A stretch of DNA of 64,000 nucleotides from Pempheris klunzingeri (lineage: Eukaryota; Chordata; Actinopteri; Acropomatiformes; Pempheridae), in contig NC_092032.1 of assembly GCF_042242105.1 (NCBI RefSeq), positions 16,231,915 through 16,295,914 of the forward strand. The letters are read 5' to 3'. A program made the position numbers and the translations under genes. The notes beneath the pieces were generated by a model. That model had not been told where the DNA came from, made no database searches, and saw nothing but the letters and a program-made list of their open reading frames with translations. Position 1 is the first letter of the stretch; every line of letters starts with the position of its first letter. Positions 7,017 through 64,000 of the stretch are shown here, piece after piece.

Positions 7017-7346
7017 AGGGGCAGCATGGTGGTGCGGTGGTTCCCACTGTTGCCCCACAGAACGGTTTGAACCTGGGGTCTTTCTGGGTGGAGCTTGCAT
7101 GTTCTCCCCATGCTAGCGTGGATTCTCTCCAGGTACTCCGGCTTCCTCCCACAATGCAAAGACATGCACATTAGGTTAATTGGAGACTCTAAGTTGCCCG
7201 TGAGAGTGAGTGTTTGTCTGTCTCTATATATGTTGGCCCTGTGATTGGCCGGCAACCAGTCCAGGGTGTACCCCGCTGGGATTGGTTCCAGTTCCCCCGA
7301 GACCCTGACGGATAAGTGGTATAGACAATGGATGGTTGGATGGAAT
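7017..7346 (+). mobile_element. Teleost GGCAGCATGGTGG...ATGGATGG repeat, copy 1
   Basis: A ~330-bp copy of a repeat found throughout teleost genomes. It opens with GGGCAGCATGGTGGTGCGG, contains GCATGTTCTCCCCATGC and CATGCACATTAGGTTAATTGG, and ends in GGATAAGTGGTATAGACAATG followed by GGATGG. A second, reverse-oriented copy lies at 48,667-49,013. The 150-codon open frame crossing it on the minus strand is incidental. Confidence 0.85.
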
Positions 7347-18299: not shown

Positions 18300-21192
18300 T
18301 CATTGCTTCTCAATCGGAGCGTCGTCCCTCACCACCGGGAATATTTCAATTTCCTTGATGATCCGCTGAGCAATGACATCGTTGTTTGCAGAAACCATCC
18401 TTCGAGACATCAAATCAAACGGTCCCCCTAAATGATCAAACAAAGCCTTTATTAGGGGGGCTTTCGCCAAAAGATAAGCCACAATATACACTTATAACCT
18501 TCGAAAGAGAGCTCAGTGCTGCATAGTCACTTGATGCTCTGCGATCAGATTGGAAAGCATACACACCATCAACATCCAGTAGTATTCCCCCGGCTTCTTT
18601 GACAATAACCGCTCCAGCAGCAATGTCCCAGCAGTGGATCCCAATCTCGAAGAAGGCCTCCACGGCCCCCGACGCCACCAGACACATGTTCGTGGCAGCT
18701 GTCCCTGACCCACGGAGCCTGCCAGGACAGATCAGTTGGAGATGAGTGAATACAAGAGGGCCATGCTGCCCTAGAAAGGCAGCCAACAGTAACTGAGGAT
18801 GGCTGGCAAAATGTGTAACTGATAGAAAAGTTGCACTGCCTTAATTATGTACTTTTTTTGGCTGATTATATCACCCAAATGAATAATTGCCAATATACAA
18901 AGTGCTTAGAAATGCAGATACTGCAGTCTGACTTCGGATACCCCTTAAGGAAAACGTATTATTTATGAACAACGTGAATTTTTTCATCTGTCTTGTCCAT
19001 TTGCACCTGTTTGTCTAAGATAATAAAGTTCATCTTCACTATTTACAGTATGCAGCTTCTTTGCCAGATGTCTCTGTCTGTCTAATATTTATATTCAAAT
19101 CAATATAACAAATTCATTTACAATTTAATACATGTAAATATATGATTTCAAGGTAGCTTAACCACATCAAATTGCATGAATTCCACTAGTATCAAAAGCT
19201 TACATGGTAGCTACTCTGCTGAGCTCAATTTTGTAGTCAATGCAAATTTTATTGTTTTTGCATTATCATTTTTAATGTGGTAAAAGAAATGGGAGACAGT
19301 CAGACTCTGGTCTGTTTTGCGGTGCAGGGCGGTACACATTGCAATTATGAGTCCATGTATGCATGTCAGCACTCACCCATGCACTGGGATGCAGAGGATC
19401 TTCTGCATGGTGGAGAAGATCTTGGTTACTTTTTCTTTGCTCCTGTCGGTTCCATGCTCAGAGATGATAATAGACTTCTTGATTTCTGCAAAGACAGCAT
19501 GTCAGAGGGGTTACTATCATATATAATTATAGGTGTGATAGTGACTGTAAAGGTGCACACGCTTGCACATACAGTATTGGTGAAGAGTCCTCCAAAGTCA
19601 GTGTATGTGTCACCTTTTTGATCCAGGGGATTCTGCTTGAATGCTTTATTCATCTGTTCTTAGAAAACCTCGAGGTCTTTGGTGTGAAAGTGATGACTAT
19701 GTATGGCTGTGTTTCTAGGTATTACATTTCAAAAGCCGGGCAAAAGAGGGCATGGACATTTCATGACTTAATTTCCATTTTCAAATGTCTATAATAGAAT
19801 AATATGACCACCCTACCTCTTACATCAGACACTTGAATTGGTTCATCATCACAGAAAGCTCCCTTCCCCTTCCTGCCTTTATACATCTTGTCTTCCAAGC
19901 AGCTGTACACCACACCAAACTCCAACTGAAAAAAAGGCGACGTTCTTTCAGTTTGCACGTACATGTATGGACAAACTATTTTTACTGACTGTAAAACTAT
20001 CCCTTTTTTGAGCCGACATACCTCCTTATTGACAGCAAAGGCAATGGACACAGCCACAAATGGGAATCTGTGAATGAGTAGTTTCAGTGTGTTATTACAT
20101 AGACAGAAAAAAATGTATGAACAGGTATTTTTTTGAAAACAAAGTAAAGTAAATAATGAAGAATAAAAAAGAAAATTACGCCTGTTCTGTTTCTTGCTGA
20201 GATTCGTCTCTTAAATACATATGAAGCTACAGCCAGGGGACAGTTAGCTTAGCTTAGCATAAAGACTGGAAGCAGGGGGAAACTGCTAGCCTGGTTTAGC
20301 AGGTTTCCCCCCTGCTTCAAGTCTTTATGCTAAGCTAAGCTATCTACTGTCTACTGTGCTGGAAAGGTTGATCTCATTAGTGAGCGTACCTTCAAATTAC
20401 ATACAAATATGTTAGAATATATCCATGTGTTTGGCTTTGTATGGAAATATTGTGAAATTCTCCCAGAACTAGTCATTTATGTAATTTTTATCTGGCTGTG
20501 TCAGAGAGATGACACCTACAACAGGAAGTGTTTGGTTCGATCAATCAACACAACAAACACTGACATCTTACCCATGTACAAAGTTCGTGGTGCCGTCCAC
20601 AGGGTCTATGATCCATGTAGGTTTGTCGGTTAGGATACACGCTTCCCCCTTTGCCACCGACTCCTCCCCGATGAAACTGAAGCACAGAAGAAGCGATGGA
20701 CCAATATCAAGATATGACAGAGCAATTTTGCGCCTCTGTTTCAAACATTACAAGCACACAAAGAGTGATGTATAGGTGTGTGTCTGTGCTCATGTCTCAC
20801 CAGTGTGTGCCTTCTCCGAATTCCTCTTTAAGAGACCCGATGATGATTTTCTCCACCCTCTCATCAGTCTTGGTGACAAGGTCCACAGTGGAGCTCTTTG
20901 TCATGACCCTTATTTCACTCTCCCCGGCTTTCCTAATTTCCTAACAAATGAGTTAAATATTCCCTCTGAATATTAGTGTGCATGCTTGGGATCTGGAGGT
21001 TAAAACAGGATATATTTTCATCATCACAAAATCTTTCAAAAATCTAAAGCCAAGTCTCAATTTTACCCAATGGTGCACTCACAAGAGAAGAAATATATTT
21101 AGATGATATCACAGATGGCTGTTGCTTACCGCTCCAGCTTTTCTTGCCACTGTAACAGCAAAATCATATGCCTTCTGCCAGGGGTCATCCAT
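18300..21192 (-). CDS. impa1: Inositol monophosphatase 1, tandem copy 1 (283 aa)
   Basis: Hydrolyses myo-inositol monophosphates to free inositol with Mg2+, in the cytosol, feeding phosphoinositide synthesis and, in fish, osmolyte production. Eight coding exons (minus strand): 21192-21130, 20940-20801, 20676-20572, 20067-20022, 19925-19817, 19485-19377, 18718-18567, 18427-18300. All have GT-AG introns, the phases join cleanly, and 852 nt give 283 aa (human IMPA1 is 277). It begins [13 protein letters not shown]. The metal-binding set is intact: E72 in GEES, D92 and D95 in DPVDGTTN, and D222 in HCWDIAAG, followed by IVKEAGG and GPFDLMSRR. Exon 2 is two codons longer than in copy 2. A non-coding 5' exon probably ends at 21909 (AAG|GTAAGG), spliced to an acceptor near 21232. 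It sits head-to-tail with copy 2. IMPA2 is less likely because the C-terminus and GPFDLMSRR motif follow IMPA1. Confidence 0.95.
20247..20341. repeat. Long hairpin-forming inverted repeat in impa1 copy 1 intron 3
   Basis: Two ~42-base arms, centred near 20,293, are almost perfectly complementary (CTTAGCATAAAGACTGGAAGC against GCTTCAAGTCTTTATGCTAAG, flanking complementary G5/C6 runs). It resembles a miniature inverted-repeat transposable element common in fish introns. It lies between coding exons 3 and 4, far from the splice sites. Confidence 0.8.
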
Positions 21193-26797: not shown

Positions 26798-29700
26798 CTA
26801 GCCATCTGTGTCGTCCCTGCCGACGTGATACTCTGTTATCTCCTTAGCGATGCGCTCGGCTATTGCTCTGCTGCTGGCGATGATCAGCCTCCGAGACATC
26901 AGATCAAATGGTCCACCTGGATGAAAGAGAAGTTGAACATGTTTTATACATATTGTTTATTTAATCAAAACGTCATTTAAGTATGGTTACATGTGTTAGA
27001 ACACAGCAGCGCCCTGACAATGCCTCTGAGTGACCGGGTAATTCAAATACACTGTAAATACATTCCTCAGAGTTCCTGCACCCTTAAATGATAAGGCTTT
27101 TTTATTACTTGTTAAGGATAAAATAAAACGATGCTACTCATTACGGTAACAGCTGAGAACACATGAGCCAGTGGTATTTTCTCACTGCCATAAATCTGGC
27201 TCATTGCCCTTCCTATTAACTGCTACAACAGCTATGTGCTAAGCTGGTCATGAGTGGGAAGTTATATGTTCAGTATGAAAACAGACGGTGAAGGCGTGCA
27301 GACTAATTTCGAAGCTTCGGTTATCGTGTTGGACACAGTTATTTTAACTTACACCGACTGCTTCATGAGTGCTCTCCACCCTACAAGCTTGCTACACCAC
27401 ACATGTACTCCTCCACTGTACATTTCAGATGTACAAAAAGGGAGTGTCTTAGCAGAAATCAAGGATGTGCTTGCTTTTTTAACAGCACTCCCATTGTCAG
27501 CGGGGCAGGTTAGACTTGACAAGGCATCCTAGATCTCAGGCCAGGTGTTACGCAATTGGCAGTGTTGCCAAATTCTAAAATCAAATTTCTCAAACCCAGC
27601 TGCTTCCTTTTTCTAGTACAGAGCAAGTAGCTGCCCCGCTGCCCATCTCTGACTGTTTCACGGGCGTTTGTGAGCAGATAGAGGAGGAAAAACCAATAGC
27701 AATGAGAATTAGTCACAGTAAATTATTTATAAACGTTAATAACGTCTGTTGTGTTTGCGCTGAGAGCACAGCAGCCCGTTCTCGCTGCTTTGTTCTTGTA
27801 AAACAACTTCCTTCAGCAATCCTGCAGTTTTTCCACGAGTCAATCATCCTGGAGCTTTTTTCTGTGTGACTCACCTGAAATGTCCATGATGACTCCTCCA
27901 GCTTCGGTAACAACCGCTGCCCCTCCAGCCATGTCCCAGCAGTGGATGCCCATGTGGTAGTAAGCATCAGCTGATCCGCACGCTACCAGACACATGTTGA
28001 CAGCTGCACTGCCTGGGGAGCGTATGCTGTGGATAGAAATAGGATGCTCTCTGTATTTGACTGACACAGTTAACCTCAAGTGGTGTTAGTGCGTGTTTGT
28101 GAATGTTTAATGTTATCACACAAGATTTCCATAAAATCAGTCCCCTTTTGTGACACTATTTACTATTCATTCGTTCTTTTTTTTTTTAAATATGAGGACA
28201 CAAAACATTGCAAAAAATGTGGTATGCGCCTTGAACATTAGGCTACTGAGGCACCAACAGTGGTGCAACAGGATTCATACTGCCTTCACACACAAGGATC
28301 CACAGGAAACAATACCTGTTTACCACTCTCGTACAGCCATATCAGAGCTTCACATTTCAAGTGTTCAACTGGTGAAACACGATGTGGGTTTCACTGTGAA
28401 GCAGGAACAGGACACGACACACAAAGTGCAGGTCACAGAGGTTAGTGAGGAGGCAGCCACAGAGAGCGGAACATGACAAGCTGCTTACCTCCAGCTCCTC
28501 AACTCATAGTGCCCTGCTATTGTGTGGGAAACTATTGTGGCTACGATGTTTTCGATTGACTTCTTCTCATCTGTTGCACTTCTGATAAAGTAGCTGCTCA
28601 GGGAGTGTTTGCTGAAGTAATAACCACAGGAGTCACTAAATCAGCCAGAGCTGGAATTTTTAGGATTACAACTTGTGCAGAAGTATATATTTACCCATGC
28701 ACAGGGATGGTGAGGATGTTCTTGATGTTGGCCAACATAGTTTTGAAATGCTCAGGATCCTTCTTGAAGCCCATTTCTGTCAGTACCAGAGACTGGCTGA
28801 TGTCTTGGATGAACACACAAAACCAGAAAACATCCTGTTTACTCCTCTGAAGACACAGTCAGTTAGTAAAGTACAGCTACTGTCTCTGAGGTTTCACTGT
28901 GTACAGCTGATGGTAGAGCAGAGAATATTGCTGTAATATCGTCTCCACCTGGTGGATTTCTTAAAAACTGCAACACTGAAGCCTGAGAAGATTACCAATA
29001 TGTACCTTCTTGTCCAGACACTTTGATAGGAACTCCATTGCAGAATGCTCCTTTCCCTTTCCGTGCTGTGTACATCTTGTCCTCGATGCAGCTGTAGACG
29101 ATCCCAAACTCTATCTGAGACCAAGAAGCAGCAGAGAAAACAGTAGTGATTCATATGGTGTAGGCAGAGGGATAAGAATAGAACAACAGGCAAAACTACT
29201 GTTCTACTCATCAGACACTCCCTGGGTTAATGAGGTACTTACTATATTACTGTTATTTATAATTAAGATGTTACAGTGTCAAAAAAATATGTGATTCCAA
29301 ACAATAAAACCTACCTCTTTCTTCACAGTGAAGCCAATTGACACAGAGACAAACGGAAATCTGCACAAAAGGAAATTTAACATATAAAACATTCGTTTAA
29401 TGAACTCCCTGTAGGTTTAAGCTCAGAGGAATCAATTTCCATTATCAGTTCAGTTTCATCTATGTTGTCTAATTATCCCTGACAGAGAGGACAATCCAGG
29501 AGAGAACCTAATTAAAAGATAAAAATAGTTAAGGAGACACAAAGATAAAACAAATCCAGCGCCGTATCAGCTTTCTTGATGGTTGGCACAGTAGATAAGT
29601 GTGGGCAGTACCTGTGAACAAAGTTGGTAGTACCGTCGATGGGGTCGATGATCCAAGTGGGATCGTCTGTCAGAACACTGGGAGCACCTGCAGCTACCGA

Positions 29701-31399
29701 CTCCTCACCTATGAAGCTTCAAAAGCCCAGAAAGAAAAAAAAAAAAAAACAGTGCAAAGTGTGATTTCTATCACTGTAAAATGTATGATACTACTACTGC
29801 TGCACTTTATACTGCCAACCTGCTGTGTTTCCTGTCACTTTGCTCATAGATTCTATTATATGTGATATTTGGGACAGTTTCCATTTGCCTGCTTTGACAT
29901 AGCGACCACTGAGAACACCGAGGTCATTTCTCTCAGTGTTTTTTCTTTAATTTCAAACATGTCAGCATCCTGGAGCAAGTTTATGCTCTGCAAATACACT
30001 TGGTGGACATTTGACAGGCCGATTCCAGTATTTCAAGGCTATAAGAGTATATTTAATTTTGAATAAGTTTGGTCCAATAAAAACAAATGAATTAACAAAT
30101 AAAAGGATTCAGCATTTCCCCACCAGACCAGAAGGCTTTGAAACAGCATATGAACTTCATATTCACCGTTAACAGAGTAAATTAAACTGATCATTTAGAA
30201 GTCTCGTTTCAGTATCCAATTGTTTTGTGTTTGTGTGTTTGAGGCTTATGTATTCATGTGATATCAGTATTTCTAAATTCTTGGCTAAAGCTCTGTCAGG
30301 ATTAGTGATAAGAAAAAGAGTGTGAACCTGCTTCATCATACATCAATATCACAGAAAACTATCATCCACAATGTAAAGTGAAATGAAGCATTACATATCA
30401 TATTAATCTCTTGAAAATAAAAAAAAAATAGCGTGAAATTAGGGACCATACTTTGAGAGACTGAATAATAAAAGCACACTGATAAAACACCCCCCCTCCC
30501 ACCATTTGCTGTTCAGGTACCTGTGAGTCGGGTACTTTTCCTTGATGGAGGATATAATGAGCTGTTCCACTTTCTGGTCCGTCTCGGTCACCAGGTCAAC
30601 TGGTGAGCTCTTCTGCATGACGGCGATGTCCTTCTGGAGCGCCTCGCGGATCATCTGGCAGTAACACAACATTGACAAACTCAGCAAGGGGATTTTTTGG
30701 ATGACTGACTTCATCTGCTACTTTAATTAGCCTAACATGTTGGGTGTTATTGTTACACACCATTGTCAGTGATGGGTCAGAGATGATTAGGCGTAAGCTG
30801 TAAAAACCAAATATCTTTGTGTGTCGTCTTTATCAGGTTTTTTTACACATAACTATAACTTTATTTGAAATTGTGCCCATCCTGTGCAAATGGTACATTA
30901 CATTTCTCTTCACGTTTTCTGTTTTGATGACAGTGCACATGTATCAGACTCACTACTGTGTCAGCCTGATCCGGTCCACTATTAACCTCTATGTTTCATT
31001 TTGAATACTGTATCACAAACTGATCAACATCTAAATCTATGTGAAATCTGTCTATGTCTGCAAATTACTCTCTCCTGTATCTAATAACTATTGACAAAAA
31101 CAAAAATTAATGCAACTTATGCCTATCAGGTTCTTTGTTATTGTGCTAACACTATATATGATTATTGTTAATACTTATCTTTACTATGTATTAACAACTT
31201 TGCACAGTAGTTTTGGGCAGGTTATTCTGTCTGTTTGTGGTACCTACAGGTCCCTACTGCTGTAGTACTGATTAAAGTGAATGTAAAACTGAAGTTATGC
31301 CATGTTCAACCACAAATAAAGTGATTCCTTGCTCACCTTCCCAGCGTTTTTGGTGACCTCCACACAGTGGTCCATACACTCTTGCCATGGATCACTCAT
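26798..31399 (-). CDS. impa1: Inositol monophosphatase 1, tandem copy 2 (278 aa)
   Basis: Same enzyme family and reaction as the copy at 18.3-21.2 kb. Eight coding exons (minus strand): 31399-31337, 30654-30521, 29716-29612, 29360-29315, 29114-29006, 28803-28695, 28026-27875, 26916-26798. Together they are 837 nt, 278 aa, with every GT-AG junction in phase. Exons 1 and 3-7 have exactly the lengths of copy 1 (63, 105, 46, 109, 109 and 152 nt), so the two arose by tandem duplication. It starts [12 protein letters not shown]. Catalytic residues fall at human IMPA1 numbering: E70 in GEES, D90 and D93 in DPIDGTTN, and D220 in HCWDMAGG. They are followed by VVTEAGG and GPFDLMSRR. The C-terminus HVGRDDTDG is shorter than in copy 1. 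Nothing suggests loss of function. Confidence 0.95.
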
Positions 31400-37304: not shown

Positions 37305-40300
37305 ATGGATAATGTCTTCTTTTTTTCTATCTTTGTGTCTGTTTTCAAAGGGTTCATTGTGCTCCTGCTCTGCCCTCGTCAACAGGGAGCACAGCTCGGG
37401 ACTACCCCCAACATAAAACACATCGTGGTTGGGAGGTGCTACAGTTACATCACACTAGTTAACCCCAGCTTGAGGTAATGTGCCTGTGACTTGAGCCTCA
37501 AATCTCGAGAGACGTTGATTTTTCTGCCCTAAAGGGCAGGTTGGAAAATGCCACCTTATATTGTAACAACTTGATTCGTAATTAAAGGATAAAGCCACCA
37601 GACTCTGTTGACAAAAACAATATCGTGCCACTTTGGTGTTTTAAAGGGTTTGTTCGGATCCAACACAAACAAACTAACCGATTGAGGCAGCAGTAAACCA
37701 GTCCGGTGGGTTTGAATACTTTATCATTTTTGTTGGATCTCAAAGGCTGGGAGGCGTTCAGTAACATTCCAGTGCACTAACTATCATCCTGTTGGTGCTC
37801 AGACTTTGAAATGCCATTAAGTTTAGTAAAGAGCGCTTTGTGACTGAAACTTGAGTTCTTGGGATCCAACTTGAGTATTGAACGTAAACGTTTTGTTTGA
37901 AACTTACAGGTGATTTGCACAGTGACCCCCAAAGCCCAAGGTGGCATCTTAACATGTTTTTCCCAAAATCTGAAGATAGCTCAGTTTACAATTGCTGAAC
38001 AAAGAGAATTTTTGCATATTTAACAATTCACAGATTTCAACCGATGTCAATCGACTGATCGCTGCAGCCCTTAGATATATTTCATCCTCACCTGTAGGCA
38101 TGACTGTGAGGAGATCTGGAGACAGTTTGAGGAGGCGGTTGTCCGTCAGTCCTCTTGTAACGTGACGGCTGAGGATTACCATCAGATGTTTTATGCGATG
38201 CCGCAATCCTGGCCTTGCGATAGGGTGAGCAAGCGTGAGATATAAGCTCTGAAATTTGGGTTTTTTCATTGGATGGAAAATCTTTGAGTCAAGCTAGATA
38301 ATATTTCCCTTCACCTCTTTTAGTTCCTCTTTTGGAGTAAAACCAGGACACTGATGCACAGCTATGCAGCTGTTGTACGTCACTTCTGGACACTGGAGGA
38401 CACGCTGGTCGGCTACATGTTCAACGACCTTGTCTGGTGTGGTCAAGAGGAAGACTCCGGTAGATCTTTTCTAGTTTTGACAAGGCAGAGACTAATTACA
38501 ACATAATGTTTGCACAAGCTGAGGAAATCCTTTAAAAAAAAAAAAAAAAGATTAACCTAGCAGTTCCTTGGATTTTCAAAGAGGGATCATCTCCTCAAAA
38601 AAAACTTCACAAGGGAAAAAAAGAGTATAAATACATGCAGAACCATTGTTTTCTTCTTTGCTGCCCAATGAATTATCACACAGTCTCTCTAATTGATCTC
38701 ATGAACCATTTAAGGGCTCTAGACCTTAAGCAGATAAACACTGCAGTAACTCAATCATGATGTAACATTAGCTGTAACTGAATTGGGGCATCATGGGGAA
38801 ACATTCAAGTCTACTTATTTAGATAAAACACATAAAACTTAACAAAATTTAAGTACAGTGTAATAATTAATTAGTTGTTAATGAATGAGTTCATATTTTC
38901 AGCTCACTGATGTAGCCTACTAACAATAACACTATTATATACATTGTCATGCTTTTAATGTTATAATTAACCACTAAGTGTTCTCTATCAACACTACAAG
39001 CTTTATTAAATGAGACTGGAAGATAAAGTGGGACAAAATGTGCTTCTATTGTTGTATTTTAATGAAACCTCACTGCTCAGGCAGCTGCAGTTGTGCCTTC
39101 AGCGTGTTTAATTACAGTCGTAGCACTGAGCGATTAACCTGCCAACAGCACGTCGTTGCATGTGGACACACATTTGTTTTCCTTAATATCCATCCATGTC
39201 TCATTTGGATACAAACAAGTCGACGACACTCCCCTGCTCCTTTTTAACTGACAGCTGTGAATTTGACACAGGCTTTGATTTCAGCTCTTGTCCAGAGTGG
39301 TCAGCATGTAGAAATCATCCAGTGTATTCTCTGTGGAGGCAAGCCTCACTAAACGTGAGTTAAAGGCCCAAAGTGCCGACACAGCTGTGTTGTTTATCAT
39401 TTATGTGCAATATGATGTTCCAAAACCAGCAGCAGGATGTTGTCCTCATGCGATTTCCTTCACCCATTTGCTAGTTTGCAGAGACGGCTTGTGGCAACAT
39501 CACAGTATTGCTGAATGGTTCTATTGCCAACGCCTTCAATAGGAAAAGGTAAAAAAAAAAATAATAAATTAAGATGAATGATGAATATTTTAGCAGTGGT
39601 GTTTGTTGATTATATATTACATATATATATTTTTAAATCTTACAGCATGTTTGGAAGTGTTGAACTGGACGGGCTGAACCCACACAGGGTGGATTATGTC
39701 AACATAAAGGTGGTGACCAATCTAGGAGGACCCTTCATGTGAGCATTAAACAGCATAATTGGTATTATGGTAAACATTTCTAACAAATGCACAAAGTTAC
39801 TATTGCATAAAACAATACCACTTTCCAATAAATCACCATTTCTAAAGGGTTTGCACGCTGTAACTAATGACTCACTAATCATTTCCTGCTTTATGGATCA
39901 GCTGGTGAATAAAAACAACTTTTGGGTTGCCAGGTTGAGACCCTCTAAGACCCCTGGGCAACTCCTGGAAAAAGAAATGTGGAGAATTTGGACCAAAATA
40001 TATGTCTTACCCTAAACTTGCTCATTATAAAGTTTGAAACCCACAAGATCATTCAAAACTTGACTGTGTTGAAATGACAAGACTATGCTTTGTTTCATGC
40101 ATGCGCGAATAATGGCAGTAAAGCTGAATGTAATGGAATTATTACCATAGATAGAAGATAAACACCTGCCAGAGGGATTTGCAACCCGATGGCGACCCAA
40201 GATTTGTCCTTTTTTTATGGCCCATAATTCATCTATTGTGTGTATATGCATGTATATCCTTAAATCAAGCCCCCTGTTTTTCACCTCTACAGAGAGTCAT

Positions 40301-42967: not shown

Positions 42968-45900
42968 ATGGACAAGAGGCGCTGCATCATCATCATCACC
43001 GTCAGCGTCCTGCTCATCCTCGTCCTCGCGTTCATTGTCGCGTTTACACGACCGTCCTGGCGGAACAATGGCGGATTTGAGTCAACATTTATGAGAAGGT
43101 GTGAGAACGCCACACGGTAAGAGTCTTCACTTTTAGCTGTTTATTCAAACAAGTGTAGAGGAAGTCTAAACTGGAGATTAGATTAGATTAGATTGATTAG
43201 AACACGATTTAAGATGTGTTTAATATATGTTGCATTAAGTTTGGTAGTTTATTAGGACACAGCAACCTGCCTGTAGGTCATAATGGTCAGTTCTTCCTCA
43301 AACAGCTGGAGAAAAGATGTTGATTCAGCTTTATTATCATTTTGGACAGGTGGTCCTTCACTGAAGTAAAAGTACTAACACCACATTGTGACAATACTCA
43401 TCTACTAGTAAAAGTACTGCCTTCAAATAATTGTCTTGAAGGATCAAAAGTGAAAATATAACAAATTCTAAATATTTTATTCGAATCTTCTCAACCCGTA
43501 AAGGAACTTCACTTTATCACAAACAAATTCAGAATGATAATACTGTGTGAGATGTGTGTTTCCAGCGGACAGGAAGGTGGTGAAAAATCTGACAAGTAAC
43601 TAAAGCTGTCAGATAGAGTAAAAATAGCACACAAACCACATCCCCCAACATCCTCCGGCAAAATAGTTGCAACCAACAGTCAACCCTTCATGAATGCAGG
43701 ACTGTGTTAGTTTTATCTTGCCGTACATAATAACAGACAGACAACCTTGATAACGAATTGAAATGCGGAAATTGCAATTTCATGAATGGGAATCACAGTG
43801 TGAGTGCTTGCTTGCAAGCTTGAGAAACCTTGGAAAGTATCAGTGATTCACACTTGCATGTTAATAAAGTGGGTGAAGTGGTGTAATTGCAATAACTGCT
43901 ATCCAGGATGAGCATCTGGAAGCAGAGTTCAGCGTTTCGTCCATTTGGTACTTTCTAAACTACCTGATTTCGGTTCTGATTCGGTTCTTCTCTTCAATTT
44001 TTTTCCATCAGAGTGACGCTGATCAACATTCCTGTTAGAAGCTGTTCTGCGATTTGGGCTGCATTTGAACAAGCCTATGTAGGGAAGGACCCTTGTGAAG
44101 TCCCCATGGAAGCCTATGACTCTGTCGTTGCCGCGGTCCCCTTCACACCTGCATGCAACAGAGTAAACAGCGCCCATCACAAGACTGTCTGCGTGCACAC
44201 AGTCCACAGTCCACACTTTGTATGAATCAGAATAACACCTTTAACAATCTGATACTAACTTGGTTTTTTTGGGGTTAGATGATGTTTTGGAGCAAAACGA
44301 AGGATATGGTCCAGGATTTTACTAAGAAGAAAAATTGTTTTGTGAGGCTGGAGGACAGTCCGTTGGGATATATGCTGGATGGTCTCACCTGGTGTGGGAA
44401 GGAGGGCAGCAGTGGTAAGACTCCTCAGGAAATAGACAACCTATGTAAAGTTCTACTACTTAAAAGTATGTTACTTCAAATGTGTTTTTCATCATTTAAG
44501 CAGAGGACCTCACGTGCCCTTTATGTGTGTTTCACGCCTCTGTGACATTTCCGTCGTAACGGCTGGTGTTAGAGGCGTTATTGGAGTTATTATCTTATTT
44601 AAAGCATGACAAGTCACGGCAAGTTGTTGGAACCCAGCAATCACAGTAGCTCAAAGTGGAAAAGTAAAAACAAACTTGACACGCGAAGTATGCATAACAC
44701 CAGAAGACATAATGTGGTTTTATCGTGCTGGTAGTGAGAGCAGCCTCACCGGAGCTCGAGAAGCATCATCAGAAGTCATCAGCCAGGAGGTAGCCATGCC
44801 TTGCTAAACACCACTAGGCTATAGAAGGAAGGACATAAGAGTCTAGAAGACAACTCTCTCCCTTCCAATTAGGTATCTTTTCAACTTTCTGCCTTCTTTT
44901 AAAAGACAAAAGAATATGAGGAAGGTCAGGTCCTGTAAAGGTACTTTTCCAGAGGCTTTTCTTCCCTTTAGCTTATTATCCTCAGTCATAAGATAATGTA
45001 ATTGCATGTAGGATTAATTGCAGGAGTGTTTTATTACTGTATTAGTTATATATAGGCGTACCTAATAAACTGGAAACTGCGCATATGTTCTCAGACAACC
45101 TCTAAAACAAATCAAAATGCAGAAAGTGCTTGGCCAACCCTGGCGAGTATCGTGCACGGAGGGGTGTAATTGCAGTAACACCTTTTTAAAAGACTAAAAA
45201 GTACGAGGAAGATCAGATTCTGTAACATCACTCTTCCAGAAGCTGTTTTCAGAGGAAGAGTGTTGAACTATTCCTTTTATTGTCAATACAGCAGCCATAA
45301 GATATTGTAATTGTATCTAGACAATGATAGACTTCGTAGGTGGTTTATGGCACTAATAGCATCTCAATGGGATGTTTGTGTCATTAATGTATGTCTTTAT
45401 TTTTATATGTTTAAAGTTTGGCTGTGATCATTTGTGTTTTTGCCACTTGTCTTCTGTCTCAGTGTGGGTTTGCGATGTCTGTTTTGCTTCATATGCTTCA
45501 TATAAGCAAATTCTTACTGACTACAGTGAAATGGCAAAAAGAGAAAGTACTGAATGTGTGTGTGTGTGTCGTCGTAGAAACGCTCACTGAAGGATGCCCA
45601 AGATGGACAAAATGTGAGAACAACCCAGTTCGCTCGTTTTGGAGAAGAGCCTCAGCCAGCGTAAGTTATCAACAAGAATTCACTAGTTTTGCCAAATAAT
45701 GGGATCAAGCAGTGGTTAGAATAACATACATGTGGAGCACAAGGTGAAGGAAATCCCTCCTGTGCATAAGTAATTATTATGGGACAGAAAGAAAAAGCTC
45801 GCCCTGCCTGATTCTTCATCAATGAGGCTTTGTGCTGGTCTCCATGGAGCCACATTGTGTAGCAGCCCACACATTCAGAGGAGTCCTGGAATGGTTTGTC

Positions 45901-48900
45901 TGGGTTTTTTATCCTGTTAGAAAACTACCAACACATAGCGCTCTTCTCCACGTATTCACAAAACAACACATGCGCACACGACAACACACAGATTCAGTCC
46001 AACATGAAACATGGCCATGCTTACATGTATAAAACTGAAGCACGACGCAGGAGAAAAACACCAAAAGTAAAGGTTACAACACAGAATCACACAAGCTGCT
46101 GCTGGCATCTTTAGGAAAGTGCAGTGGCTACACAGTTGGTGCGATGTGAGCAAGATCCAACTTTATGTCACCTCAGAAAGTTTAAGGTGCAGCGAGACAG
46201 ATTGTCACGTCTTGGTTAGCAGCTAAAGAGACAGATATTTCCCTCAGGGGCTAAAAGGAGAGTGAATATTGTACTTGTGCCCTGTAATCACTGGACGTGT
46301 AATATCTCAGTGTTTTGTTCACTCTTCTTCTGGTTCAATAATAACAGTAACAGTGATTCTTCATTTTGATTTATGAAAAGTAGACAGTAGACACAACTTA
46401 TGTATATCTATAAAAAGCTTATTACTCACTTTGTTGGACTTCTTAGATAAACTTTAAAAAGTGGAGGAGGCTTTAATGGCTACTGACTTTTACTATTGAT
46501 TTAATTATGTTGAAAATGCAGCTGCTGAAGTGGCACGCAGCCAGCATTAAATACCGCTGCAGCCATGTGTGTTATATGTTTTGAAAAGGCGTTGAAGAGC
46601 ATCTTGATGTCGGGGGAGTGTGTCTCCTCATCCCTGCAGCATCTCAGCCACCGGAGGGCAACACAAGCAACACATTTTTAGCAGCTCACAACAACATGAA
46701 TTCTGAGAACACTGCAGTACCACAAAGTCAGACATATGTACATGAGGAGATGTCTTGCAAATGAAGCACTGTTACAGATCAGTTGCTGCCGGCTAAAATG
46801 ATATTGTACAAGACTGATGCACGCTAACTGTGCTGCTTGTCGACCAGTGGAGTCCCTAGAGAGCAGAAAGGCCTGGCGTCGCCGTTGTGCTTGGAATGTG
46901 TGGCAGTTAACCGGCTGATTATCTCCTGTGTGTCATATCTCTGTATGTGGGGAAAGTGCTCCAAACAACCTGATTGTTTTTCATGACATCAGTTTGAGGG
47001 AAGGATGGATCAGAGCATATAGAGGAAGAACTGAAATGATAGTCACACTTTGACAGTTAAACTATTTTGTAAATGTGACCGTTGAATCATAATAATGCTC
47101 TTTTTATTCAGCCTCAGGCCTCCTGACAAAGACACACAGGCAGTAATTAACATATTTTACAATCCAGAGACTTTTTAGCAGTTTATTTAAGAGCATTTCA
47201 AATGACGTAGGACGGAGATGTCCAGTTGGACGTGATTAGATAGCAGCACTGTTATTTTACTCTACAGTACATGACACTTACATTCAACATCACTCTTTTA
47301 CACTTGATAAAAAAGCTTCACCCTCACACCCAGAACATTTTCATTACAAGATACAATGGATTGTCCTGCAGTATTGTAAGACACTGTGAGAAAAAGACAT
47401 TTAACATAAACTCAAACTGGCCCAAAGGTGCAAAAAGAATCACATTTCCACTAATAGCACAATATTTCATTTACACAGACTTAACAGACTTCATGAAATA
47501 AACCTGTGAAATGGAATGAAAGTCATTTTTCCAAACGCTCTGCTGCATTATGAAAGAAATAAAACGTGTTACTCAGGAAAGAAACAGTGGTATAAATCTC
47601 AAGTGCAGTTTCTTTAACATCGTCTTCGTGTCTGTAGTTTGCAGACGCCGCCTGTGGTGACGTCACAGCAGTGCTAAACGGATCCATCCCCATGCCGTTC
47701 AATCCTACGAGGTAAACTCCTCTGCACTTCTTCTGTTGACAGCTGATGACTTCTCACTTATCCGTTTTTCGAATGTTTATGCAACTAAACATTTTGACAG
47801 TGGCAGACGCAGCACTAAAGATGCATCTGGTTCCTTTGTCAAAACATCTGGGCTGTAATCTGGTACAGCACCAGAAGCTCGCACATGAGGCTCATTTTAA
47901 ACTATTTATTTTCAAATATTTGCTATTTATCATTAGCATCTCAGTCTGGTCAACGGACCAACACCCTAAAAGTCTCTGACATGACCACACATCCTTTAGA
48001 TATTACTTTAACAGAGTCTTGTCTACGAATACTTTCAATCAACTGAAAGTCACATAGTTGATATCCATAAGTTTTACTTCTTTCATATCAAGTTATATCA
48101 CATCCTGTATATTACATGTTTCTCACCCCTATCTGCTGTGTATTGTTCTGTATTTTGTTGACTTACTGTTAGAAGGTTTTTCTCATGTAACATGATTCTG
48201 TAGGAACTTGTGTCATACATGGTATATAATATGTTCCTCTCAAGTCAGCATTCTACTCTTCCGACTCCACTTTGTCTGGACAACTGGTTGTTCTAACGAA
48301 AGATCAAGTCCATCTTGGGACATGCTCTCATGTATCTGAAACCAGATATAGCTTGTAGAATCCTATAGATGTGGTAGCTTTACTCTGTATTCCTTAGCCT
48401 GTGATGTTGGACTCGTACACCTACATAAACTTCTTGAATGAATCTTGGACTCCGATCCCTACACTTACCTACTTGCTTATCTGCCTGTCATGGTGAGTTG
48501 GCTTAATACAATCTCTCTAACTTAAATTTTTCGTCTGCAGTGTTTTCGCGACCATCGAGGTGAAGAGGTTCAAGTCCGCCACGATGAAAAGCCTGACTGT
48601 TGTTCTTGTCGCACAGAACTTTGTGTAAGATTTCTGCGACACTATTGTCCTTTTATTGTTCATTTTCATCCATCCATCCATTTTCTATACCGCTTATCCG
48701 TCAGGGTCGCGGGGGGAGCTGGAGCCTATCCCAGCTGACTTTGGGCGAGAGGCGGGGTTCACCCTGGACTGGTCTCCAGCCAATCACAGGGCCACATACA
48801 GACAGACAGACAGACAGATAACCACTCACTCTCACACTCACAGGCAATTTAGAGTTACCAATTAGCCTAATGTGCATGTCTTTGGATTGTGGGAGGAAGC

Positions 48901-49356
48901 CGGAGTACCCGGAGAGAACCCACGCTAGCATGGGGAGAACATGCAAACATGCAAACAGAAACACCCAGAGTTCAAACCGAGCTAACCACAGCACCACCAT
49001 GCTGCCCTGTTCATTTTCAACGTGATGATATTTGGGCTACAACACGCAAATATGCAGAAAGACAAGATTGTTCCTGAGGTCGTGTTTTCTGTGTCCTCTG
49101 TGCATTTCACCTCTTCAGGACAAACTGTGCAGATGCATCTTTAATGAATTTACAGAGGGAGCTGGATACAAGAATTCAATACAACTGCAAGGAAGTGAAA
49201 GAGTAAGTGCAGCATGTTTGCGTGAGAGGACGTGACAACATATACATTTCTGTCCTCACACAATATGTCGACTTGGTGTTGTCTGTCTCTCTCTGCAGAG
49301 CTGACATCAGGGAGTGCATGTCCCATAAAGACAAGCCCTGTGGACCCTGTTGGTGA
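42968..49356 (+). CDS. cd38: ADP-ribosyl cyclase (CD38 type), copy B (272 aa)
   Basis: Makes and hydrolyses cyclic ADP-ribose from NAD+. Type II membrane protein: a short basic N-terminus (MDKRRC) precedes a transmembrane helix at about residues 7-23. Eight exons: 42968-43116, 44012-44162, 44279-44414, 45578-45660, 47638-47711, 48541-48624, 49119-49202, 49299-49356. All are in phase (819 nt), and exons 3-5 have the same lengths as in copy A (136, 83 and 74 nt). Active-site residues are W104 (human W125), E125 and D126 (E146, D147), the D155-equivalent Asp kept in LGYMLDGLTW, W167 (W189) and E204 (E226). Glycosylation sites are at ENATR and LNGSI. The C-terminus is Cys-rich (CMSHKDKPCGPCW) with no GPI signal. 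Human CD38 is 300 aa. Introns carry repeats, including one arm of an inverted repeat. Confidence 0.95.
43345..43455. mobile_element. CTTAAGTA-type repeat fragment in intron 1 of cd38
   Basis: CACTGAAGTAAAAGTACTAAC, CTAGTAAAAGTACTGCCTTC and GGATCAAAAGTGAAAATAT match the internal part of this repeat family. Confidence 0.6.
44898..45320 (+). repeat. Diverged direct duplication in intron 3 of cd38
   Basis: A segment of about 110 bp beginning TTTTAAAAGACAAAAGAATA (about 44,900) recurs as TTTTAAAAGACTAAAAAGTA (about 45,186). Each copy is followed by AGGAAG(G/A)TCAG, a TTCCAGA(G/A)GCT block and CATAAGATA(A/T)TGTAATTG. The stretch between them contains CCTAATAAACTGGAAACTG. It looks like an old insertion or local duplication. 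Confidence 0.6.
47134..47488 (-). repeat. Inverted repeat, left arm (cd38 intron 4)
   Basis: This 355-bp block is the reverse complement of 49,440-49,787, with only a few substitutions and one short indel (an extra ~8 bases near 47,193). It ends 149 bases before exon 5. The other arm begins 83 bases after the stop codon of the same gene, so the intron holds an antisense copy of the likely 3' UTR. Confidence 0.93.
48667..49013 (-). mobile_element. Teleost GGCAGCATGGTGG...ATGGATGG repeat, copy 2
   Basis: Reverse-oriented copy of the element at 7,017-7,346, starting CATCCATCCATTTTCTATACC and ending CAGCACCACCATGCTGCCC. It sits in intron 6 of cd38 and contains a short (ACAG)n run near 48,799. 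It lies within the loop of the 47.1/49.4-kb inverted repeat. Confidence 0.88.
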
Positions 49357-49439
49357 GGACGTGCCGAGTGAATGTCAGATTATACTGGCAAAGACAAGAA
49401 ACACAACAAAAACCAGCTTTGAAAATGTTTGTTTTCATC

Positions 49440-49787
49440 TCTGTTAAGTCTGTGTAAATGAAATATTGTGCTATTAGTAGAAATGTGATTCATTTTGCAC
49501 CTTTGGGCCAGTTTGAGTTTATGTTAAATGTCTTTTTCTCACAGTGTCTTACAATACTGCAGGACAATCCATTGTATTTTGTAATGAAAATGTTCTGGGT
49601 GTGAGGGTGAAGCTTTTTTATCAAGTGTAAAAGAGTGATGTTGAATGTAAGTGTCATGTACTGTAGAGTAAAATAACAGTGCTGCTATCTAATCACGTCC
49701 AACTGGACATCTCTGTCCTACGTCATTTGAAATGCTAAACTGTTAAAAAGTCTTTGGATTGTAAAATATGTTAATTACTGCCTGTGT
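49440..49787 (+). repeat. Inverted repeat, right arm (after the cd38 stop)
   Basis: Counterpart of 47,134-47,488. It starts 83 bases past the TGA and so probably makes up most of the 3' UTR. No AATAAA lies between the stop and 49,787. An ATTAAA at 50,076 is the nearest plausible poly(A) signal I noticed. Confidence 0.93.
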
Positions 49788-52776
49788 AAAATTAATATAT
49801 AACATATTTGATGAGGAAAAGAGCCCCAAAACAATATAACACAAAACTAGATGAAATTAAGTAGAGTTCACTAAACTATAACAGAGTCAGGGGATACTCA
49901 CTGCACGAATGCTGGTCATCATGTGACCGAAATTCCACTTTCGGGTCATGTGATGACGCCTGAGACGGCCGCATTCATTGAACAAAGATCTGATTTGTGG
50001 CTGAAACCTTCGAAACCAGTGGGAGAACCTTTGACCCTGGATAATTACATTTAATTTTTTTTTTTACTTCACTGAATTAAACATTAGATAATTATTGACT
50101 CAGTAATGCAAGTTATTATGTATCTGTGCAGCACTTTGTCTTTGTCTTGAGTTTATTTTAATTTCTTCCAGTGTTTGCGAATGAATTAAGTTGCAATCAA
50201 ATTTTTATAGACTCAATTAATATTTGACCTTTAATATCTAATGCGTCTTTTTGAGCCCACATTGATTTACATTCATCACACTAGCTTTTTTATTTTAAAA
50301 GGGACCTGGTTTTTAGTGCAGAGACGTTTTTCTCCTCCTGTCTGAAAGGATTTTGTCGTCCTATACTATCATCAGTCCTGATATAAACCCACGTTGAACT
50401 GATAATCTCTCTTCTTACTTTGTGGCAGACTTTGAAATGATTCACATAAGTTTTGAACTGTGATGTGAAGTTACTGTTTGCGTTCGATTTTGACTGACTG
50501 ACTTTGAAATGATCTTTTAATGGCATAATGGACTTGTTAAATAGGCGATCTGAGCAAAAATGAAAGCACGATTGGTTTGTCTGGTTTGATTTAAGAAAGA
50601 AAACAAGCAACTGAGAGAAAAGCAGTGACTTTTGTCAAACCACACATGAAGTGATTTGCTGATTATCTCAGTTGTGGCTAAAAAGGCTTATTTTTCAATA
50701 CTAAACACACCGTTTTTGCTTTCTCTTTTGATTCACATGAAACTGTTATCTGCTGTCTAAGGTTCAGCTTAGGTGTATGCAAATATGCAGAACCACTAAA
50801 CCACTGAATAGAATAGAAAGTGTTATTTAAAAAAATCACACCTGCTTATGGTTTTAGATTTGTAGGCGTAGGCCACAAAATGTCTTTTCTATCATGCGTG
50901 GGAACCGAGGGCGTGCGTGCGATGACACAGAGAGGAACTTAAAGAGCGTCCTCTACAATGAGATTGTTGGGGCAGGAAACAGGAGGCTCATCTTTCCTTT
51001 CTAGAGGCTTGCTGCTGTGTCACACGTACCGTAAACGGGCTCTGCCGGTGCTGGGAAGAGACGTCCGGGTTTCTCTCTGCACAGGTGTGACATGAAGAAG
51101 GCCCCTTCTGTAAAACCACTACATGGGGTACTATGACTGCACTGTAATGCCGGTAAACAGCGCTTGAGTTTCAGTCACTGCCGCTGACACTACACTGCAC
51201 TAATAATAATTATCTATATATGTCAATGCGGTTGCAGTGAAACTAGTCATTTTTTTTAACTTTTGAACTCACATATTGCCTGACTGAGGTTTAAAGTGAG
51301 AGAACCTTTAGCTTTTTAACATCTTTTAGAGGACTGTGAACATTTTAGGAATGATCTTAGGTATGGGACTCTCAGTCACGCACAAAAGTCCCAAACGTCT
51401 CTATTTGTAGCTTGAAACCAAATGACAAAGTCTGATTGTATGGGAGTCTATGGAATAAGCCAACTTCTGATTTGATTTGTTACCTCAGTAACCATTTTCC
51501 TGCTGAGTTCATGGTTTTGTAGCTAGCTGCTAGTTTCAAGTCTCCTTCAATACAACATGATGTTAATTTTGTACATTTTGCTCCCATTAGAGGAAAATAG
51601 TCCCATTTTACAGTGAAATAAAATAGAGTAGGACTACCTTGTGACTAACCAATCCCGTGTGGTCACTGTGGAGTGGATGTCACTCCGGCCATGTCCACTT
51701 TTTTTTTACACAGTCTACAGTTCCAGTGTTATTTTATCCCACAAATCTTCTCAGCAAGACAGCGAACAAGCATATTTCCCAAAGTTTCAGACTATTCCTT
51801 TAAGACGTTCCTCTACAGTAGGAGCCTTAAGGTGTACCTGAAGTTCCCTGAAATCACCTCAGAAGTTACACAGCACCTCACATGTTAACTCTAATGGACT
51901 TTAAATCATTAAAAACAGCAGTGACTTGCAACTCACTCATCTGCACCGTCATCTGCACTCAGCTGTCTTGGTTTGCTCTGACATACAGAATTCTGACTTT
52001 TAAAAGAAGTTCTTTTGGTGAAGTGGGATATCCCAGAATATGAATCCTCTGCACAAGGCGTGCTGAAATTAACAGGAGGAAGCTTCCACTTCCACAAAAG
52101 TCTCATTACTGTAACAATAAAAATGTGTTGCTTGGTGTGAAAAGTGTCTGAAGGGGTAATGAAGCAGCAGCTATGGCGGGAGGTCTGTCAGCTTTACATG
52201 TGAGAAAGAGAGAAATAGAAACTAATAGAAAGAGTAAATGTGCAGCCTTGTGTGGTGATGACTGGAGGAGGAGCTGCGGCGTGTTTTCCCCTCTCCTCCT
52301 TCCCTGAAGTGCGCTCTGAGTCAACGCCTTTGAGAACAGCCTGTGCGATGATTGAGTAATTTGATAAACCTGCGAGATGTGTGATTTTCCCACTACCACC
52401 ACAGTTCAGCGGACGGTTTCATCCTGATAAAACGTTTTCCGGTTTCTACATGTGCGCGGTTCACCCACCCAGGGAGATGTGTTCACACGCTGTCCGCTGT
52501 AAGAAATGACGACTTGTGGCCTGCAGCAGCAGACCAGATGTCTAATTTACTGGTATTTTATCTTTTAAGTCTGATTAACGTGAAATGATTTCAATTATAC
52601 TTCAGTGAAACAAAACTGTAAATCTTGATATTTCTTTATATAGTCCTTGTTTTGAAGCCTTTCAGAAACATACAGTAGAAAAAAATATAAATATTCTTTT
52701 GAATTATTGTCTAAAATATCGTCCTTAGTACTACTAATGGAAGAGTTAATAAAAAATAATAATAACAAATAAATAC

Positions 52777-61968: not shown

Positions 61969-64000
61969 TCAGTAGAAAGCGGGGTTTGTGTGCTCGATGA
62001 CGCAGCGCCGGCAGTGGCGTCTAACGAACCGCAGAGCCTCTGGCGACACCTCGCAGTCCTGCACGTTGAGAAGCTGCAGCTCGCAGCAGTTGGCAGCCAG
62101 AGCTTTGAGTCCTCTGCCTGTAACGCTCTCGCAGGCTCTGAGACTCACTCGCCTCAGGCCTTGGCAGTACATCGCCAGCTGCTCCAGGCCACTGTCCGAC
62201 ACAAGCGGGCACTTACCCACATCCAGGGACTTGAGTTTGGGGCAGCTCCTGGCCAAGTGGCTAAGGCCGTGGTCTGTCAGCCCCTCGCAACCCCTCGCGT
62301 TCAAGTAGCGCAGTCTAGGGCAGTAGCGAGCCACGTAGCGCATGCCCACATCGGTTATGCGGGTGCAGTGGGCCACGCTCAGGTAGCGCAGGCAGCCCTC
62401 CAGGCGGGCGACTTCGCGCAGGCCGAAATCCCCGACCAAGCGGCAGTCACTAAGACTAAGCTCTCTTATCGAAGGGCAGTGGAGAGACAGGTGGCGCAAG
62501 GCTTCATCCGTCAGTCTGGTGCAGCGGCGCAAATACAGATGGGTCAGCCGGGGGCAGTGGGAGGCGATAGTTCTCAAGCCCTCGTCCTCAAGGGAAAAAC
62601 AATCGGTCATGTCCAGGTAGTGAATGGAGATCTGCTGGCCGTGCAGAGGGGACAGCTGGAGCGAGGCCTCCTGGGTAAGGCTGATGCATGTCACCTTGGA
62701 GCAGCCTGGAGGGAGAGGAAACAGAGGCTGTAAGCACAAAGACAAACTATTTCTCCACAGTAGATTGTTTTTATTTAAAGGATAAGTTTGCTCATTTTCA
62801 AGTCTGACTTGAAACAACAGGCTGGTGCATTTGTGAGCAACGAAACAGATTTTATTCCCTATGTGCTTCTAATTTAAGCGACTGGGGAAGAAAAAAAGTC
62901 CAAAGCAAAAATGCATTCCATGGTTTAGCTGAAGCTAAGCTGAGGCTTCAGCAGTCTGTGAGTCTTTTCCAAAGTATGAGTCTTTTTAGTACAGATTTCC
63001 CTCTTTGAATTAGTCACTCCACCACAAGAGAGGTAAAAAAAAAAGAGGAAAGCCTGATATTAGCTCCAGATAAAACCATTTTCCAATGAACAAGGAATTT
63101 GTATTAGAAGCACATGAGGAGGGGATCTCTTAGTGGCCAGTATGAACACGAAGAATCAAGAAAAGAAATACATTCAGTGCACACACAGGCCTGTGGGTAT
63201 TGTTGTAAGGCAGACTTGACTATTTCTGAGCTCAATTATAAAATGCCACTTGAGGGCGCCAGAGTGAAACCTGCTGTATTTGGACACACGCCTGCAACTA
63301 GAAGCATGAAAATGTTTTGAGTGCAAACAGCTCCATGAAAAGCAAAATTGTGGTCAATTTTCATGGAAAAATAAAATCAAAGGCTGATGTCCTTCCCTTG
63401 ATTCCATTATTTCGTGCCTTTTAAATAAAAGCCACAAGTTTTTTAAGGCTAACAAAGAGCTTACTTCCTGGTGCTAATGGTACAGACGTTGCTCTGCCAC
63501 CACAGTCCTGTCCAAGTCAATGTTATTTGTGTCACTTCCTTAATGAAAGCAGCAGACCGCTCTCCTTACTCACGTTGAGGTAAGTTCTGCTTTCAGCTAA
63601 AGAAAGCCTTTCTTCTCCCACATGGGAGCTTAAGGTTGGCAGAGCTTCTCCTGCTCCTCTAATGATTCTACCAGCTTTAACAGAAATGACTGAGGGGGAC
63701 TGAGAGGAGGAATTCTTTGAGGTAAAGCCACATGGCCTGCTGTCCACCACCAATCAGAGATGGTGAGATGGCTTTGATTTCAAGTGTATTTCCTTTTACC
63801 TGAGAGGTTCAGGTGCTCCAGGTTGGGGCAGCGGGACACCACTTCAAACACAGCCTCATTAGAGATGTTATAACAGCCAGCGACCTCCAGGCGACGCAGC
63901 TCCGGGCAGCACTGAGCCACCACGTGCAGCCCCCGGTCGGTGAGCCTTTTGCAGCCGTTCACCATCACCGTCTCCAAGGTCAGGCACACGTTCGGGGTGT
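61969..64000 (-). CDS. fbxl7: F-box/LRR-repeat protein 7, C-terminal exons (partial)
   Basis: Substrate-recognition subunit of an SCF (SKP1-CUL1-F-box) ubiquitin ligase. The window holds the last two coding exons: 64000-63800, open to the window edge, and 62705-61969. They are joined in phase across a GT-AG intron (SG|CSKVTC). The F-box and N-terminus lie beyond position 64,000. About 310 residues are visible, made of cysteine-type leucine-rich repeats of ~26 residues (LTHLYLRRC..LTDEAL, LRYLNARGCEGLTDHGL, LKSLDVGKCPLVSDSGLEQL). They end in LNVQDCEVSPEALRFVRRHC and then CVIEHTNPAFY. This C-terminus is nearly identical to human FBXL7 apart from a final Tyr for Phe. FBXL5 was considered because it neighbours CD38 in mammals, but repeat order and C-terminus are those of FBXL7. 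Confidence 0.97.

Follow-up and report, generated by a model that had tools for sequence, protein, structure and literature searches.

How did two long and nearly identical sequences in opposite orientation come to lie within a single cd38 gene of the fish Pempheris klunzingeri, and what could they do to the RNA of that gene? The question concerns a stretch of 64,000 nucleotides, here called the window. The gene had been called cd38 in the original prediction, and both its domain and its closest solved structure agree with that name. Eight exons splice to 819 nt, i.e. 272 codons and a stop without internal stops, and all seven introns of the model have GT...AG borders. Pfam PF02267 (E 2.9e-75) identifies the 272-aa protein as an ADP-ribosyl cyclase, and among relatives with a solved structure CD38 is the best (E 2e-41). 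Eight exons are described for vertebrate CD38 genes as well (PMC6368836). The parts of the gene are the following:

42968..43116, plus strand: cd38 exon 1, coding part
44012..44162, plus strand: cd38 exon 2
44279..44414, plus strand: cd38 exon 3
45578..45660, plus strand: cd38 exon 4
45661..47637, plus strand: cd38 intron 4, contains the left arm of the inverted pair
47638..47711, plus strand: cd38 exon 5, within the loop
48541..48624, plus strand: cd38 exon 6, within the loop
49119..49202, plus strand: cd38 exon 7, within the loop, carries the last donor of the gene model
49299..49356, plus strand: cd38 exon 8, coding part including the stop; terminal exon

When positions 45000-52000 were compared with themselves on the minus strand by BLASTN, a single pair was obtained, in which 47134-47488 matches 49440-49787 in reverse complement. 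The coordinates and the few differences that had been claimed for the two arms were thereby confirmed. The alignment has 342 identical positions in 355 columns (96.3%), with six mismatches and one 7-nt gap, and with an E-value of 9e-169 the similarity is beyond chance.

47134..47488, minus strand: left arm, 355 bp, in intron 4, antisense relative to the 3' UTR copy
49440..49787, plus strand: right arm, 348 bp, in the inferred 3' UTR, begins 83 nt past the stop codon

The arms are in opposite orientation within one cd38 gene and flank exons 5-7 plus the coding part of exon 8. Both end sharply at common, full-length ends. The distances of 83 nt from the stop to the right arm and of 149 nt from the left arm to exon 5 were exact as predicted. 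An ungapped repeat finder returned arms of 297 nt at 99%, 1,951 nt apart, and a further 52 nt at 96%. In a self-comparison of the whole window (E<=1e-6), the arms ranked top among eight repeat pairs, followed by a dispersed repeat with 76% identity.

The six substitutions in 348 sites correspond to a divergence of 1.7% (95% interval 0.6-3.8%). Neutral change in teleosts proceeds at about 0.5-1% per site and million years in each lineage, and at this rate the duplication would date back roughly one to two million years, provided that gene conversion has not homogenised the arms. The duplication thus apparently looks recent. A trace of gene conversion was sought in the spacing of the differences and rejected, as the longest clean run of 135 compares with a random mean of 119 and was reached in 27% of the trials. 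One difference affects a CpG of the left arm (47213-47214), which reads CA on the matching strand of the right arm. It suggests that this site changed in the right arm and is silent on which arm was the template. Base skew was rejected as a guide to the source arm, since by the AT skew the left arm would be the native one and by the GC skew the right arm.

Pairing of the arms in RNA depends on where the transcript ends. The original prediction named an end before 49440 as the case that would refute it; such an end is not favoured, with cleavage sites being predicted here from signals. A search for ten types of poly(A)-signal hexamers found none from the stop to the right arm, and because of their absence transcription probably enters the right arm. 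The signals beyond the stop are:

49667..49672, plus strand: AGTAAA, variant poly(A) signal in the right arm, the first past the stop
49794, 49833 and 49870: three rare hexamer variants past the right arm
50076..50081, plus strand: ATTAAA, first common poly(A) signal past the right arm
51617: AATAAA, downstream

Canonical hexamers also sit inside intron 4 (ATTAAA at 46546; AATAAA at 47497 and 47558), so some transcripts could end there, short of the right arm.

The original prediction held that a full pre-mRNA would be able to form a duplex of about 350 bp, and the predicted folds support this. The duplex of the sense-strand arms has 346 pairs with a predicted energy of -607.9 kcal/mol; the value for the opposite strand is -596.7. 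The same 346 arm-to-arm pairs appear in the predicted minimum-energy fold of the entire 2,654-nt span at -1142, compared with -695 to -700 for three versions with a shuffled left arm. Nascent cd38 RNA would pair its arms over about 346 bp from the transcription of the right arm until the removal of intron 4. As splicing takes out the left arm, the duplex would be limited to nascent and intron-retaining RNA, and the spliced mRNA, which keeps the right arm alone, should behave normally. The proposed trapping of the RNA in the nucleus could accordingly apply to RNA that contains intron 4, and not to the spliced mRNA; a mature mRNA would contain both arms only on retention of intron 4. Of the molecular consequences of the duplex, editing would be the most probable, as nuclear ADAR would probably act on it.

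The best-known counterparts are inverted Alu pairs (IRAlus) in human pre-mRNAs, for which circles or altered splicing are described when they are intronic and nuclear sequestration when they lie in the 3' UTR (PMC11263572). The same source reports that ADAR1 edits and modulates IRAlus, and it treats the influence of editing on retention as controversial. According to PMC4053846, the majority of known editing sites seem to be in lineage-specific regions, chiefly inverted repeats. The cd38 locus shares with IRAlus the inverted arms in intron and 3' UTR and the predicted duplex. Unlike IRAlus, its arms are single-copy, and with one in an intron and the other in the last exon they are parted by splicing. 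Small RNAs had also been proposed as a product. In the somatic cells of vertebrates, strong endogenous siRNA is not expected. In flies, hpRNAs with inverted arms and gene homology are described as giving long dsRNA and siRNAs (PMC10317233). By analogy, the cd38 arms have gene homology and a potential for long dsRNA like hpRNAs; they differ in lying within one protein-coding gene and in their exon-bearing spacer of 1,951 nt. In principle, the cd38 locus appears to resemble known inverted-repeat systems, but it is neither a repeat-family pair nor a 3' UTR pair.

Circular RNA from exons 5-8 was proposed originally and is unlikely: exon 8 is the last exon, so that such a circle would require a cryptic donor. 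A circle of exons 5-7 is the plausible natural back-splice product given the gene model, and a minor share of transcripts may join exon 7 to exon 5 in this way. These exons amount to 242 nt, which is not a multiple of three. Complementary sequences lie on either side of the exons, and of the two arms only the left one is in a flanking intron, the right one being in the terminal exon past the stop. Donor-like sites were scanned with a weight matrix, and two are of note:

49353..49358, plus strand: cryptic donor-like site TTG|GTGAGG, overlaps the stop codon, score 3.68
49647..49652, plus strand: donor-like site AAT|GTAAGT in the right arm, score 4.93

The former outscores five of the seven donors of the gene model and the latter all seven. 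Scores of at least 3.6 are reached by 56 of the 3,767 GT sites on the plus strand of the window.

A duplex or an exon 5-7 circle could have been selected as a regulatory device that tunes the output of cd38. The near-perfect pairing would agree with this, as would the four of six substitutions that keep G-U pairs in the sense RNA, and circRNAs promoted by paired flanking introns are presented as established in PMC11263572. However, the excess of transitions that keep pairs (4/5) is not significant (two-sided p 0.375), the spacing of the differences fits chance, the pair seems young and only one of its arms is intronic. Selection for pairing was rejected as the cause of the strand bias of the differences, and a selected device is regarded as highly improbable. 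Even less credence is given to the idea that the excised intron 4 serves as a built-in antisense to the cd38 3' UTR, which would make a self-regulating gene out of one mutational step. The 355 nt of the arm in this intron are complementary, nearly throughout, to the 3' UTR of the mature mRNA. If true, a stable lariat or the hairpin pre-mRNA could act on cd38 mRNA in cis or in trans, by masking, editing or destabilising it. Most likely the arrangement is neutral, and a function is probably absent.

The origin of the arms was addressed by their copy number. The original prediction had proposed to count the arm copies by a search of the genome, and the search found only the two known places. It covered the fish's own genome (645.9 Mb in 439 contigs, with the window at C21:16231915-16295914). 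The left arm as query gave two candidates genome-wide, both of which were scored and are the known arms; the right arm gave the identical two places, even at E<=10. A dispersed repeat of intron 6 (48664-49007) served as control: searched in the same way, it gave 3,856 candidates, and the 40 that were scored had 62 matches. The search passes over very common words, so that its counts are lower bounds and very diverged relatives of the arms may escape it. At this sensitivity, the DNA of the arms is otherwise single-copy. One exact 25-mer of the arm had no match in genome_contigs and none in viral_contigs; a 25-mer of the neighbouring fish repeat had none in viral_contigs either, which gives no sign of useful fish DNA in that collection.

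The frequency of comparable pairs was estimated on 20 pieces of 10 kb, one from each of the contigs C1-C20 at position 5,000,001 (200,000 bases, 72 N). None of the 11 inverted pairs found there at E<=1e-5 was at least 200 bp long and at least 90% identical, the nearest one having 212 bp and 86%; a sample of this small size shows only that such pairs are not everywhere. Among the titles listed in a literature search on an inverted repeat in a fish cd38 intron, none was on the topic.

No target-site duplication was found at either arm, as the 15-nt flanks share no common word of at least 4 nt. There is no A or T run within 15 nt beside the left arm, and no microhomology at the junctions was seen in the flanks by eye. 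The inner flanks resembled each other by eye. The homology of the inner 60-nt flanks is not significant (of 400 random pairs, 101 reached the anchored score and 123 the local score), and the outer 60-nt flanks had an anchored score of zero and a local score reached by 48 of 400 random pairs. Decayed homology past the arms, as expected if gene conversion had preserved the likeness of an older duplication, was considered and rejected on these scores, which match those of random pairs.

A retrocopy, i.e. a reverse-transcribed 3' end of the cd38 mRNA inserted into the gene's own intron, would agree with the position of one arm in the inferred 3' UTR and of its partner elsewhere in the gene. Still, the left arm has no poly(T) tract where the poly(A) tail would be and no target-site duplication, and the copied block stops 289 nt short of the first common poly(A) signal, with rarer variants nearer; this origin is considered highly improbable. 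An assembly artefact, from a chimeric fold-back read or a misjoined haplotype, is given equally little weight. The arms differ by six substitutions and 7 nt and are not one sequence assembled twice, the 1,951-nt spacer contains intact exons, and the window is free of N and belongs to a 22.5-Mb contig. All nine matches of the cd38 protein are on C21 inside the window, which leaves no sign of a second haplotype copy. The least probable origin is that one short mobile element (SINE, MITE or other) inserted twice independently, in opposite orientations: both arms do have common full-length ends and inverted pairs of short elements are described, for Alu, as a usual source of genic duplexes (PMC11263572), but the arms have two copies only in 646 Mb compared with 3,856 candidates for the control repeat, target-site duplications are absent at either arm, the left arm lacks an adjoining A/T run, ARAGORN with bacterial settings found no tRNA gene in the window and Rfam had no match at gathering score there.

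Because of the two copies only, the missing target-site duplication and the missing flank homology, the pair is read as an inverted duplication rather than as two repeat insertions. In full, a single-copy segment of about 350 bp in one cd38 gene is taken to have been duplicated recently, locally and in a dispersed, inverted arrangement, and the arms are not regarded as a mobile-element pair; a probability of roughly 0.8 is given to this reading. The original prediction had left the choice between two insertions and an inverted duplication of the 3' UTR; it is decided against two insertions of a repeat family and for an inverted duplication of single-copy DNA. 3' UTR sequence was perhaps moved into intron 4, or perhaps the transfer was in the reverse direction. 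The copying would have taken place in replication or break repair, with a DNA end using the opposite strand some 2 kb off as template for the segment and being rejoined afterwards, the route being a template switch or end-joining capture.

Such an inverted duplication is like those from template switching or break repair, in which nearby single-copy DNA is copied in opposite orientation without target-site duplication. Short-range template switching is described as often producing nearby inverted repeats (PMC7954356), and MMBIR is presented as a model for complex duplications (PMC2621351). The cd38 copy is unlike these in its size of about 350 bp, its distance of about 2 kb and the absence of junction microhomology. 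Microhomology-mediated switching of the MMBIR subtype predicts junctions other than those seen; microhomology-free junctions fit end joining or a template switch without microhomology.

This kind of arrangement is already known, and the cd38 locus is a clean example of it. Recombination between the arms could invert exons 5-8. Six sites and a 7-nt gap distinguish the arms, which are unique as searched, so that reads from RNA can be attributed to them. The locus could offer a natural setting in which to test ADAR editing, back-splicing and the tolerance of self-dsRNA in fish. As a clean and apparently recent case, it indicates that one copying error, without a transposon, can give the pre-mRNA of an ordinary gene the potential for long dsRNA.

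Upstream of cd38, the window holds further coding stretches:

38102-38458, + strand, partial second ADP-ribosyl cyclase (bst1/cd38-like; cd38 protein match and open stretch)
18439-20747 and 27843-29718, − strand, pair of inositol monophosphatase genes in tandem (PF00459 and DNA identity)

When the cd38 protein was searched against its own genome, 38324-38458 matched it at 40%. The open stretch directly before 38324, judged by eye, is a candidate for the preceding exon and looks like one; 38102-38458 is part of a bst1/cd38-like gene in tandem with cd38. The inositol monophosphatase genes are spaced by ~9 kb, and PF00459 was matched by all six frames tried at these loci (Pfam). The pair shares 70-75% DNA identity in three matching stretches of the whole-window self-comparison. 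A long open frame with leucine-rich repeats (61972-62868, − strand; Pfam LRR_6) resembles the last exon of fbxl7.

Repeats other than the cd38 arms were also recorded:

20242-20345, inverted repeat within the first inositol monophosphatase gene, lying between exons (41-nt arms, 22-nt loop, 93% complementary)
48664-49007, dispersed repeat of the P. klunzingeri genome, in cd38 intron 6 inside the loop between the arms

The dispersed repeat gave at least 3,856 candidates in the own-genome search, whose counts are lower bounds, and 40 of them were scored. An inverted copy (76%) lies 41 kb upstream at 7019-7345, as found by whole-window self-comparison. Elsewhere, one of the twenty sample stretches of this genome contains a palindromic stretch of ~412 bp that is 71% self-complementary (L029:3278-3689).

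Candidate processing signals were located around the cd38 arms:

47497 and 47558, + strand, AATAAA hexamers in intron 4, just past the left arm
49353, + strand, donor-like site overlapping the stop codon (weight-matrix scan)
49647, + strand, donor-like site AAT|GTAAGT inside the right arm (weight-matrix scan)

With the matrix weights used for both donor-like sites, 49647 scores higher than all seven donors of the cd38 gene model; an AGTAAA hexamer follows it 20 nt downstream. Polyadenylation at 47497 or 47558, if used, would terminate the cd38 transcript in intron 4, upstream of the right arm.
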